In this document: in pieces, positions 22,341 to 25,817 of the stretch
Numbering within the stretch: the stretch's first letter is position 1
How the letters are laid out: each line of letters starts with the position of its first letter
NCBI RefSeq assembly: GCF_000299395.1
Contig: NC_018656.1
Coordinates: forward strand, 992,001-1,056,000
Source of the DNA: Candidatus Nitrosopumilus sediminis
GTDB taxonomy: Archaea; Thermoproteota; Nitrososphaeria; Nitrososphaerales; Nitrosopumilaceae
Length of the DNA stretch: 64,000 bases
Direction: 5' to 3'
The notes under the pieces: model-generated
Database searches by the model: none
Told to the model about the DNA's origin: nothing
What the model saw: the letters and a program-made list of their open reading frames with translations, nothing else
Program-made: the position numbers and the translations under genes

Positions 22341-22877
22341 ATGAAGAGTGAGTTAATTGAAAACAGGATAATAGTATGGGATATTGAAGATTCAAAAGAA
22401 CTTTTCAGCCAAGGATATTATGGAAAACCAATAGGAATACCAAAACCAAAAATTGAAGAAATAGACGCTCCATTAATTTTGGATCTCATTGAAGGATTAT
22501 ATCTTTTAGAAAATAAAAAAATCACAATTACAAAATCAAAACAAAAAATTTCAGTAGAGCAATTAATTGAAATTTGTAAAAAAGAAGTTCATGAATTTGA
22601 CAAAAAATATCTAGTATACAAAAATTTCAGAGATAAAGGATACATCATTAATCCCGGAATCAAATTCGGATGTGACTTTGCAGTATATGAGAAAGGTCCC
22701 GGAATTGATCACGCACCATTTTTGGTTCAAGTTTATACAAGAAGTGAACCAATAAAATCAACAGGAATTGTTTTAGCAGGAAGACTTGCATCATCAGTCA
22801 AGAAACAATTCATTTTGGCAATTCCAAAAGATAAAGATAAAGTAGATTTCTTGGCTTTGGATTGGTGGAAAGCCTAG
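22341..22877 (+). CDS. endA: tRNA-intron (splicing) endonuclease
   Basis: An archaeal EndA of about 178 residues from ATG 22341; TTG 22326 and ATG 22332 are alternative starts. The start MKSELIENRIIVWD suits the family. The catalytic triad is visible near the C-terminus: Tyr116 in FAVYEKGPG, His124 in GIDHAPF and Lys154/155 in SSVKKQF. It cuts introns at bulge-helix-bulge sites in pre-tRNA and rRNA. The length fits the short homomeric or dimeric subunit type. Confidence 0.9.
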   Translation: MKSELIENRIIVWDIEDSKELFSQGYYGKPIGIPKPKIEEIDAPLILDLIEGLYLLENKKITITKSKQKISVEQLIEICKKEVHEFDKKYLVYKNFRDKGYIINPGIKFGCDFAVYEKGPGIDHAPFLVQVYTRSEPIKSTGIVLAGRLASSVKKQFILAIPKDKDKVDFLALDWWKA

Positions 22878-23251
22878 ACTGATTTAATGTGACCTGCTAT
22901 GCGATCATAGATTTCAAAGAGTTCTTTTGTAATTCCAAAAGCAATATGATTATCCCACTTGCTTCTAATTCTAACTGCTTTGTTAGTAGGTTCAACATAG
23001 ATAGTTGCATCTTTGACAGATTGTTTTGCTATCATTTCATTTAGCTCAGTATCATCATTTAATTTCGATGATAGGCTGCCAGAACCAATCCATTCAACCT
23101 TTACTACAGATTTTGAGGCAAAATGGCCTTTTGTAGTAAGTTTAGTTTTTGCAACATAATTATTGTAATTACGACCAGTTTCTTTCTTCACTATGAATTG
23201 GGCTTGAAATCTATCTAATGCGCCCCATGGAAGTGGATTTGGATCTTGCAT
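22874..23251 (-). CDS. Uncharacterised soluble protein
   Basis: A 125-residue protein, not recognised. It is strand-rich, with TGRNYNNYVAKTKLTTKGHF in the first half and TIYVEPTNKAVRIRSKWDNH in the second, and has no cysteines or membrane segment. It overlaps the endA stop by four bases, convergent. It lies two bases after the small gene at 23254, so the pair is an operon. Confidence 0.6.
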   Translation of the reverse strand: MQDPNPLPWGALDRFQAQFIVKKETGRNYNNYVAKTKLTTKGHFASKSVVKVEWIGSGSLSSKLNDDTELNEMIAKQSVKDATIYVEPTNKAVRIRSKWDNHIAFGITKELFEIYDRIAGHIKSV

Positions 23252-23253
23252 GA

Positions 23254-23490
23254 TTATCCCTTTTGAATTATTTGTACAACATCAATGTTAGAATTCTTGA
23301 TATCAATACATCCACGATTAGTTACCATTCTAGGTGTTTGAGCAAAATATCTACTATAGTAATCATCTTTTTCAACTTCATCAGTTCCAATTTCTTTTGG
23401 TTCGGAATCAACACCGATCTTTTTTAACATATCAGCAAATTTTTCAGGCCATGATTGATAGACAAATGTGTCAGACTCTGTATCATGCAT
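23254..23490 (-). CDS. Small uncharacterised acidic protein
   Basis: A 78-residue acidic protein (SWPEKFADMLKKIGVDSEPKE early, DDYYSRYFAQTPRMVTNRGC later). Not recognised. It is translationally linked to the downstream 125-residue protein by a two-base gap, and together they may form a small complex. Likely cytosolic. Confidence 0.6.
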   Translation of the reverse strand: MHDTESDTFVYQSWPEKFADMLKKIGVDSEPKEIGTDEVEKDDYYSRYFAQTPRMVTNRGCIDIKNSNIDVVQIIQKG

Positions 23491-23589: not shown

Positions 23590-25362
23590 ATGTTAAAATT
23601 CCAAAATAAACTTGCACTAATTACAGGTAGTGGCACAGGTATCGGTCAAGCCATTGCCAAACGATTTGTTGAGAATGGTGCCAGTGTAATAATTCTTGGT
23701 AGAAGAAGAGAACCATTAGATGAAACAGCCAAAATGCTAGAAGGGATTATTTCTGAGAAAAATAGCGGAGCGTCGGTTAGAATATTTTCAGGAGTAGACG
23801 TTGCTGATGAAGCAGCTATGAATGGCATGTTTGAATCACTTGTTAAAGATAATGTTACAATAGATTTCATAATTAACAATGCGGGAGTTTCAGGTCCTGT
23901 TACATGTTTTGCAAATGCATCAATGGATGATTTCAAAAGTACAATTGCAATTCACCTAACAGGAACATTCTGGGGCTCTGTTCAAGCACTAAAAGTAATG
24001 AAGCCAGGTGGAAAAATCATTACAATTTCAACGTTCTTTACTGAAGAACGTCCATTAGAACAAAGACCATATAGATTTAGAAGTCCATATACTGCATCTC
24101 AAGGTGCTAAAAACAGACTAGCAGAACTAATGTCTTGGGAATTAACAGATAAAGGAATAATTTCGATTGCAACAAATCCTGGCCCAGTACATTCAGATAG
24201 AATTTACAAAACAGTATATCCAAAAGCTGCAGCAGAATTTATGAGAGTCAGTGGTTTTGAAGATCTTAACCCTGTAGAAGTTGATGCTGCAAATAAAGAA
24301 TTACTCCCATTACTAGGAGAAGATGAAAGGGTTATCAAAGACGGTATTGCAAAAGCAGCAGAAAAATTAGCAAACGGCAAAGATATTGCTAAACTTACGG
24401 AGACATTAACAAATTTGCTAAACAAAATTCAAACCATAGCAGAAAAAGTACAAAACAATACATCACATATGATTGCAAATCAGGAATTTCTTTCACAAGG
24501 TCAGGTTTCAGAGTCTGTTCTCAACTTGTGTGATGATGAGATTGCAAAAATTCTAAACGGCAAAGTCATACCAGGAGACAGAGTATTTTATCCAGTAAAA
24601 CCACATATTGGAACCACAACCCCAGGAGTTCATCAACCGGATTTCGCAGGAAAGGCTATAGTATTTACAATTGATGCAACAGACAAAACAGATGCTGAAA
24701 GAGTAGAATTTTTGGCACAACATGTTGAAAAGAACGGAGGAAAAGTAGCATGCTTTATTTCACAATCAACACCAGCTGATCTTCAAGAATACATTAGCAG
24801 CAAATTCCATTCCCATGTTGTAGATATCAAAAATCCAGAGGAAGTAGAAAGATGGCTAAACACTGCAAAAACAAACATTGGAGAGATTTTAGGAATTATT
24901 CACATTACAGGAAAATTATCAGATGGGTTGAAATTAACTGAATTATCACGCGCGGCATGGGAAGAATTAACTGAGAAATTCATCTCAACCCCAGCAAACG
25001 TTGCACAAAGAGCATTGGAGCAATTTGTGCCAGGTGGAAGTAAAGATCCTCGCCTTTACAAAGATGCAAAGGGGGCAATAATGATCATAGGACCAGATTT
25101 GCCGATTGGAAGAAAAGTCACAGGAACACAAAGAGCACAAGTAGAAGTATTCAGAGGAGCACTAAGGCCATTTACAACAACTGTAAATCAAGAACTAAGC
25201 GATGTGTTAAATTCAAAAATCAGAATATTCACAATTTTCCCAGGTTCAGTTACAGGGTCAGAACCAAATAATCAAAGAATTGCAGATGCATTTAATTTCC
25301 TAGTATCAGATAGTTCTGCTTCATCATCAGAAGTAACCTTCTGTGTAGATGAATTAAGATAG
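23590..25362 (+). CDS. Tandem short-chain dehydrogenase/reductase protein
   Basis: A 590-residue protein with two SDR-like halves. The first has TGSGTGIG (12-19), NNAG (96-99), Ser147 and Tyr167, but the YxxxK lysine is Gln171 (YTASQ). A helical insert of about 100 residues (240-340) separates it from a degenerate second SDR that lacks an obvious Tyr/Lys site. This double-SDR layout resembles the N-terminal half of Chloroflexus malonyl-CoA reductase (malonate semialdehyde reductase part). In ammonia-oxidising archaea those steps have been assigned to other gene families, so the role is open. A MaoC-like gene follows after two bases. Confidence 0.75.
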   Translation: MLKFQNKLALITGSGTGIGQAIAKRFVENGASVIILGRRREPLDETAKMLEGIISEKNSGASVRIFSGVDVADEAAMNGMFESLVKDNVTIDFIINNAGVSGPVTCFANASMDDFKSTIAIHLTGTFWGSVQALKVMKPGGKIITISTFFTEERPLEQRPYRFRSPYTASQGAKNRLAELMSWELTDKGIISIATNPGPVHSDRIYKTVYPKAAAEFMRVSGFEDLNPVEVDAANKELLPLLGEDERVIKDGIAKAAEKLANGKDIAKLTETLTNLLNKIQTIAEKVQNNTSHMIANQEFLSQGQVSESVLNLCDDEIAKILNGKVIPGDRVFYPVKPHIGTTTPGVHQPDFAGKAIVFTIDATDKTDAERVEFLAQHVEKNGGKVACFISQSTPADLQEYISSKFHSHVVDIKNPEEVERWLNTAKTNIGEILGIIHITGKLSDGLKLTELSRAAWEELTEKFISTPANVAQRALEQFVPGGSKDPRLYKDAKGAIMIIGPDLPIGRKVTGTQRAQVEVFRGALRPFTTTVNQELSDVLNSKIRIFTIFPGSVTGSEPNNQRIADAFNFLVSDSSASSSEVTFCVDELR

Positions 25363-25364
25363 GA

Positions 25365-25817
25365 ATGAAAAAATTTTCTGAATTCAGAGTAGGAGATTCA
25401 TTTTATTCTACATGTAGCATTTCAGACAAAGAACTAGAAGAATATCTAAAATTTTCCAGAGTCAAAAATGCATTCTTGGAAGATAAAAGGAAAGGAGAAC
25501 AACATCTAGTTTCAGGAAGAGCAGCTCTATCAAGAATGGAAGGGGAATTTACAAGATTAAGTCAGATTTATGGAAATGATATAATTTTGGTCGGCACTGA
25601 CGGGGATTCTGAATGGGGAAATAGAAGCACTAGATTTCTTAAACCACTATACACAGATCAAGTATTAAAATTAAAATTTACAGTATCTCAAAAGGAAGAC
25701 GTTGACGAAGAGTATGGGAAAATTTTTGTAGATTATGAAGGAATGAATCAAGAAGATGAAACAGTTCTAATATCAAAAAAGAATATTTATCGAATCAAAA
25801 AAGAACCACCAAGATAA
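25365..25817 (+). CDS. MaoC-like hot-dog-fold protein
   Basis: A 150-residue protein opening FRVGDSFYSTCSISDKELEEYL, the beginning typical of MaoC-like (R)-enoyl-CoA hydratases, and continuing with hot-dog strands (NRSTRFLKPLYTDQVLKLKF). The usual catalytic D-x-x-x-H motif after the first helix is not visible, since the region reads SRVKNAFLED. It may be a non-catalytic or divergent member. It is translationally coupled to the tandem SDR, suggesting that both act on the same acyl thioester. Confidence 0.6.
   Translation: MKKFSEFRVGDSFYSTCSISDKELEEYLKFSRVKNAFLEDKRKGEQHLVSGRAALSRMEGEFTRLSQIYGNDIILVGTDGDSEWGNRSTRFLKPLYTDQVLKLKFTVSQKEDVDEEYGKIFVDYEGMNQEDETVLISKKNIYRIKKEPPR

Follow-up and report, generated by a model that had tools for sequence, protein, structure and literature searches.

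A tandem SDR protein with glutamine at the catalytic lysine position is a candidate malonyl-CoA reductase of ammonia-oxidizing archaea

The malonyl-CoA reductase of the Sulfolobales is related to Asd and comes from a family unrelated to the tandem SDR protein described here, for which the same step is proposed. The malonyl-CoA reductase (MCR) of Chloroflexus and Roseiflexus consists of four fused SDR domains and catalyzes two reactions. Its N-terminal half (MCR-N; SDR1-SDR2) is a malonic semialdehyde reductase, and its C-terminal half (MCR-C) is arranged as SDR3-ED-SDR4. According to the accessible text on the Roseiflexus enzyme, simulations of MCR-C put Tyr743, Arg746, and Tyr749 on the malonyl moiety of malonyl-CoA, and Tyr172, Arg175, Tyr178, and Thr165 were found on malonate semialdehyde in a crystal structure of MCR-N (PMC10470521). 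The triad Lys is Lys753 in the C half and Lys182 in the N half. The same text reports that activity was lowered by mutating Tyr172 or Arg175 in the N half and Arg746 or Arg785 in the C half, that Lys753 is essential since its mutation abolished overall activity, and that Arg1164 was the main CoA-binding residue in the simulations (PMC10470521).

Ammonia-oxidizing archaea (AOA) fix CO2 through the HP/HB cycle, described in the available part of PMC4510362 as the most energy-efficient aerobic one. In the accessible sections of PMC6038301, malonyl-CoA reductase is one of four N. maritimus enzymes that had no identified gene, yet were active in extracts, and genome searches likewise gave no AOA malonyl-CoA reductase gene in those of PMC6964070. 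The available part of a 2026 marker list holds no malonyl-CoA reductase entry for the AOA variant (PMC12894919). Unproven steps of the cycle are marked in the accessible part of PMC12542715, where GabD, Asd, and PhaA are named as candidates that fit proteome patterns. One of the proposed candidates that increase when carbon is limiting is Asd, which we read as being meant for malonyl-CoA reduction. Malonic semialdehyde reduction is assigned to Nmar_1110 in the available parts of PMC4510362 and PMC5797428. The latter reports that Nitrosocaldus lacks an Nmar_1110 homologue and suggests that SDRs about 30% identical to Chloroflexus MCR are possible malonic semialdehyde reductases there, which is the nearest prior proposal that we found. 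The first-pass annotation of the gene studied here had cautioned that other enzymes are assigned to this step in these archaea; as far as these sources go, that applies to malonic semialdehyde reduction and not to malonyl-CoA reduction. Nmar_1608 is discussed as a succinyl-CoA reductase in the available part of PMC4510362. KEGG Nmar_1608 was considered for that reason; the gene studied here was not linkable to any Nmar number. No named AOA malonyl-CoA reductase gene was found in the open-licence literature, preprints excluded, and a subscription paper or preprint may name one.

The window, meaning the whole stretch of 64,000 nucleotides that was analysed, comes from a 1.69-Mb genome on a single contig. 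Archaeal amoA is present in this genome and, therefore, its source is an AOA. The protein is encoded by a single ORF running from ATG to stop (Table 1). Pfam adh_short matched two stretches of it, giving two SDR-type halves and confirming the tandem SDR called by the first-pass annotation. In NCBIfam, 228 families matched the protein, and the best 25 of the 228 were all far under their own cut-offs. The predicted structure had a pLDDT of 89.1 and a pTM of 0.89. In this model the insertion holds three helices (residues 228-241, 246-260, and 266-293), and residues 278-303 align by profile with the MCR-C extra domain, at its end only.

Table 1. Features of the tandem SDR locus, in window coordinates
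Feature	Position	Strand	Evidence or remark
590-aa tandem SDR, candidate malonyl-CoA reductase	23590..25362	+	ORF, distribution, predicted fold, tree
Catalytic SDR domain, residues 1-222	23590..24255	+	Pfam adh_short, invariant residues, clade with both MCR halves
Catalytic-domain motifs: TGSGTGIG, NNAG, T148, Y161-xx-R164-xx-Y167-xxx-Q171, PGPVHSDR	within 23590..24255	+	
Thr148 codon, catalytic Ser position	24031..24033	+	Equivalent to Thr165 of MCR-N and Ser731 of MCR-C
Tyr161-xx-Arg164-xx-Tyr167-xxx-Gln171 motif	24070..24102	+	Equivalent to Tyr743-Arg746-Tyr749-Lys753 of Roseiflexus MCR-C, but Gln for Lys
Lys174, invariant, seven residues past Tyr167	24109..24111	+	60/60 orthologues
Arg204 of PGPVHSDR	24199..24201	+	Equivalent to Arg215 in MCR-N and Arg785 in MCR-C
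Helical insertion, residues 223-300	24256..24489	+	Occupies the position of the MCR-C extra domain but is shorter; predicted model
Second, degenerate SDR domain, residues 345-590, auxiliary	24622..25359	+	Nucleotide motif absent in 60/60; structural match to MCR second domain
MaoC-like hotdog protein, 150 aa, adjacent	25365..25817	+	Neighbour in family f1 loci only

When the predicted model was searched against the PDB with Foldseek, ranks 1-24 were all MCR entries. The MCR-C halves came first (E 3.8e-27), the MCR-N halves appeared from rank 20 (3.0e-24), and the first match outside MCR was 2et6 (E 1.8e-18). With VIA-align, the top 13 rows were all MCR-C, with Z scores of 37.4-35.5 and the best of these covering 518 residues. 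The predicted fold matched MCR-C along its whole length, over more than 500 residues. The best MCR-N row reached 34.7 (all MCR-N rows, Z 32.9-34.7), and MCR rows other than this one and the top 13 lay at 29.8-34.6. A single SDR reached Z 27.9 over 257 residues, and the tandem SDR 2et6 reached 26.8 over 437 residues, which is under all MCR rows (29.8-37.4).

The 2et6 entry is the Candida multifunctional enzyme type 2, a (3R)-hydroxyacyl-CoA dehydrogenase that is also a tandem SDR, and in some AOA loci a MaoC-like protein is found near the tandem SDR gene. In the window this neighbour has no Pfam match, and its predicted fold is that of a MaoC-like hotdog protein (pLDDT 83.7; Foldseek E 7.2e-8 to 4ffu). 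One possible explanation is that the tandem SDR acts as a (3R)-hydroxyacyl-CoA dehydrogenase together with the adjacent protein, in the manner of the peroxisomal multifunctional enzyme type 2. We give this very little credence, even with 2et6 as the first Foldseek match outside MCR, given the lower Z score of 2et6 and a Tyr-Arg carboxylate motif, described below, that would be left unexplained. Of the 60 tandem SDR loci, 30 showed the hotdog neighbour, all belonging to family f1, and therefore it is not apparently needed for tandem SDR function and is probably not part of it. Synteny was rejected as a functional link, since neither the hotdog neighbour nor a tRNA endonuclease gene is retained in all AOA. 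Beside the tandem SDR, no gene of the HP/HB cycle was noticed. On the reverse strand, a small ORF of 78 aa lies upstream at 23254-23490, with similar ones seen by eye in loci L037, L049, and L051. A 125-aa protein at 22874-23251, also on the reverse strand and without a Pfam match, is conserved close to the tandem SDR across many AOA loci, some f3 loci and the f5 locus among them.

A sequence search of the PDB placed two full-length MCR chains at the top with both halves matched, and the AOA profile gave the same result. This top rank is partly inflated because two stretches are summed, and single ordinary SDRs equal each MCR stretch. For the relation to MCR, the predicted structure decides more than the sequence rank. 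At domain level, profile comparison gave an E of 4.7e-39 with the ordinary SDR profile and of 1.8e-26 and 7.6e-25 with the MCR profiles; this advantage was set aside because the ordinary SDR profile was made from 64 diverse sequences and those of MCR from 10-13 near-copies. The second domain showed no clear relation to MCR SDR2 or SDR4 by profile (E about 1e-3). However, the SDR2 and SDR4 profiles of MCR also miss each other (E 0.027), so the failed match is not evidence against kinship with MCR.

A tree of the catalytic domain was built from 15 of the 60 AOA sequences, 10 MCR-N and 12 MCR-C sequences from 16 MCR loci, and 32 of the 74 ordinary SDRs, these being the first ones to pass length and motif filters. 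The AOA, MCR-N, and MCR-C sequences formed one clade against the 32 ordinary SDRs (95/92, with long branches flagged). Within it the AOA sequences stood beside MCR-N (92/71, unstarred), and the AU tests rejected neither AOA with MCR-C (p 0.31) nor MCR-N with MCR-C (p 0.33). An origin from MCR-N or from MCR-C, therefore, could not be separated by the tree. Three of the MCR-type sequences (L071, L078, and L081) lie in MAGs named Gracilibacteria, Gemmatimonadaceae, and Actinomycetota; they are 64-75% identical to the Chloroflexus query and could be gene transfers or binning errors.

The first-pass annotation had likened the layout to the N-terminal half of Chloroflexus MCR. The likeness to MCR was borne out by the Foldseek ranks and the clade, and on the choice of the N half the evidence is divided: the structure slightly favours the C half (Z 35.5-37.4 versus 34.7), and the tree and two residues lean weakly to the N half. 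These residues are Thr148 and Ser202, which follow MCR-N (Thr165 and Ser213), whereas MCR-C has Ser and Gly there. Loop length and the helical insertion follow MCR-C. Like MCR-C, the AOA protein pairs an active with a degenerate SDR, carries the Tyr-xx-Arg-xx-Tyr motif and PGPV..[DE]R, places its insertion ahead of the last part of the catalytic SDR, and has a nearly equal spacing from Thr/Ser to Tyr (19 and 18). It differs from MCR-C, its best structural match, in having only about 20% identity, Gln for the essential Lys, Thr for Ser, a much shorter insertion, and no Arg1164. With MCR-N it shares the Tyr-xx-Arg-xx-Tyr motif, a Thr where Ser would stand, PGP..S[DE]RI, a similar length (590 aa versus the 549-aa chain in 8aew), and a weak sister position in the tree. 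It departs from MCR-N in having Gln for Lys, a slightly lower structural match than with MCR-C, and an insertion with no counterpart in the MCR-N profile alignment. In contrast to the fused bacterial enzyme, the AOA protein stands alone with two SDR domains. It is a third branch of the MCR clade, half the size of bacterial MCR. Because one defining feature, the triad Lys, is missing, we do not count it as an MCR but as a related protein that probably functions in the manner of one MCR half.

The position beside MCR-N and the match of Thr148 and Ser202 raise the possibility that the protein performs the MCR-N reaction, as a malonic semialdehyde reductase that the AOA ancestor already had and that the Fe-ADH type enzyme Nmar_1110 later supplemented or displaced in most lineages. 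We consider this unlikely, as the global fold is nearer to MCR-C and the helical insertion resembles the MCR-C extra domain. The distribution of the Fe-ADH, which bears on it from both sides, is given below.

Active-site residues were read in 60 orthologues from 60 loci (215 of the 300 class genomes gave a match), and alignment A1 holds 36 sequences, namely P0001 and those of 35 loci. In the first SDR, the nucleotide motif TGSGTGIG spans residues 12-19, and its pattern was matched by 59 of the 60. Thr148, Tyr161, Arg164, Tyr167, Gln171, and Lys174 did not vary in any of them. The sequence Tyr167-TAS-Gln171 places Gln four residues past Tyr, where classical SDRs have YxxxK. Among 74 ordinary SDRs, 71 had Tyr at the catalytic position in the alignment and all 71 had Lys at +4; Gln occurred there in none. 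For motif counting, 58 of the 74 could be parsed by regular expression and 71 of the 74 by alignment, and the latter was used. Since Tyr167 and Gln171 are invariant in the AOA, YxxxQ is neither chance nor error. The first-pass annotation was, thus, right about the exchange and about the degenerate second SDR, whose TGxxxG[IL]G motif is absent from all 60 orthologues (in 38 of them this domain contains YxxxK at some point, counted only as an unaligned string). It had also listed the nucleotide motif, Ser, and Tyr as kept. The motif and Tyr are, and the Ser position is the invariant Thr148; the adjoining Ser147 varies (51 S, 7 A, and 2 T). Thr was found at the catalytic Ser position in all 10 MCR-N rows as well. 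The Ser/Thr-Tyr-Lys triad is, therefore, incomplete in the AOA, with Thr148 and Tyr167 kept and Gln171 in place of Lys.

The Tyr-xx-Arg-xx-Tyr motif was present in all 60 AOA sequences and in 12 MCR-N and 14 MCR-C stretches from 15 of the 16 MCR loci; it was not seen in the ORF taken from locus L078. Its Tyr and Arg occurred together in none of the 71 ordinary SDRs with an aligned Tyr. The motif was scored by its distance from the catalytic Tyr because the alignment had failed to pair Tyr161 with the MCR Tyr, and Roseiflexus residue numbers were placed on the sequence of locus L073. An equivalent of Arg204 was found in every aligned AOA and MCR row versus 1 of the 74 ordinary SDRs. When the helix is aligned by hand, Arg1164 of SDR4 comes to lie over Asp538, in a second domain that aligns weakly, and the invariant AOA Arg219 lies near Arg799 of the MCR-C extra domain with uncertain equivalence. 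A Lys seven residues past the catalytic Tyr, the place of Lys174, was found in no MCR or ordinary SDR row of the alignment. The FabI-like motif is Tyr-x6-Lys, and a FabI-like use of Lys174 is a guess from the sequence.

Another possible explanation is that loss of the Lys turned the protein into a catalytically silent regulator that binds nucleotide or malonyl-CoA, and that Asd or another enzyme reduces malonyl-CoA. The essential role of the Lys in MCR, in the accessible text of PMC10470521, and the Asd candidate rising under carbon limitation, in that of PMC12542715, would both fit. However, the invariance of five active-site residues (Thr148, Tyr161, Arg164, Tyr167, and Gln171) and the near-universal nucleotide motif are unlike a decaying active site, and we regard a silent role as highly improbable. 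The window genome has two PF02774 genes, one Asd and one of ArgC/LysY type, named by eye from sequence and neighbours; the latter adjoins a LysX-like ligase and a kinase. With only these two, no spare Asd or Sulfolobales-type paralogue is apparent, which also argues against a silent role.

Among the 300 class genomes, the tandem SDR was found in 215 (E 1e-30 or better) and archaeal amoA in 201. Both were present in 198, the tandem SDR only in 17, amoA only in 3, and neither in 82. The two genes occupy the same 34 of 69 genera. The genera of the discordant genomes have both genes in other members, so assembly gaps are the likely cause. Among 398 phylum genomes, 75 had a match at E 1e-25 or better, of which 73 were AOA with the tandem protein (one, in G100, is partial, consisting of the second half at a contig end). 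The two other matches cover the first SDR only, and all matches that reach the second domain are in AOA families. PF11794, a family that includes 4-hydroxybutyryl-CoA dehydratase as well as other enzymes, was found in 43 genera of the class, namely the 34 AOA genera and 9 without amoA. The tandem SDR was present in none of these 9 and, therefore, tracks the HP part of the cycle and not the HB part. This distribution fits the part of the cycle from malonyl-CoA to propionyl-CoA. It tracks AOA ancestry equally, and any AOA-specific core function would match too.

The same absence argues against a role in the 4-hydroxybutyrate part, in which the protein would reduce succinyl-CoA or succinic semialdehyde as its sole or a promiscuous second activity. 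A different short carboxylate could fit the Tyr-Arg pair, and the accessible parts of PMC6038301 and PMC12542715 leave those AOA steps, too, without a proven gene. Since the motif is the one that MCR uses for malonyl-CoA and malonic semialdehyde, we think such a role very unlikely.

A strong match to the Fe-ADH of the Nmar_1110 type (E 1.7e-24 or better) was found in all f1 (11 of 11) and f3 (7 of 7) genomes tested. It was missing from six f2 genomes, with weaker or no matches, and from one f5 genome, with none (L051/G111); all seven have the tandem SDR. A tandem SDR without a strong Fe-ADH match in f2 and f5 would suit a malonic semialdehyde reductase and recalls Nitrosocaldus without an Nmar_1110 homologue in the available part of PMC5797428. 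On the other hand, f1 and f3 would then be left with duplicate enzymes for this step and lack one for malonyl-CoA. In the f2 and f5 lineages, more than a single step may fall to the tandem SDR, or a different enzyme may act.

The best reading, to which we give about an even chance, is that the tandem SDR is the missing malonyl-CoA reductase of AOA, a half-MCR in which Lys has become Gln. That it acts on either malonyl-CoA or malonic semialdehyde seems fairly likely to us. The more specific proposal, that a stand-alone half-size MCR relative without the SDR Lys reduces malonyl-CoA in AOA by means of Gln171 and perhaps Lys174, is possible at slightly less than even chance. The predicted fold, the clade, the invariant motif, and the distribution were observed directly; the substrate, direction, cofactor, and roles of Gln171 and Lys174 are what we infer from them. 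In such a malonyl-CoA reductase, the first SDR would bind NADPH through TGSGTGIG, and Tyr161 and Arg164 would hold the malonyl carboxylate. Thr148 and Tyr167 would polarise the thioester carbonyl for hydride transfer, after which CoA would leave. Gln171 would replace Lys in the ribose contact, with the invariant Lys174, located a helical turn beyond it, perhaps supplying positive charge. The acyl-CoA pocket would be closed off by the helical insertion together with the degenerate second SDR. Reduction of a thioester to an aldehyde ends with a thiolate leaving group and not an alcohol; a strongly acidified Tyr may, therefore, matter less, and Gln171 could maintain the contact to the ribose.

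Several observations weigh against a malonyl-CoA reductase. Gln stands at the position of Lys753, whose mutation abolishes MCR-C activity in the accessible text of PMC10470521. The Arg1164 site is not kept, Thr148, Ser202, and the tree (92/71) lean to MCR-N, and sequence comparison does not link the second domain to its counterparts in MCR. Asd has already been proposed and fits the proteome pattern in the available part of PMC12542715. In its favour, the tandem SDR is kept in f2 and f5, which lack a strong Fe-ADH match.

The first reductive step of the AOA cycle is without a reported gene, and the tandem SDR offers one universal candidate with a precise active-site prediction that makes it testable. 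If the proposal is true, homologous enzymes would carry out this step in the AOA HP/HB cycle and in the 3-hydroxypropionate bi-cycle of Chloroflexota, and an archaeal cousin of the fused bacterial MCR would exist as a free-standing protein. The SDR Lys would be replaceable in an enzyme of CO2 fixation, and the tandem SDR would serve as a genomic marker for the AOA cycle.
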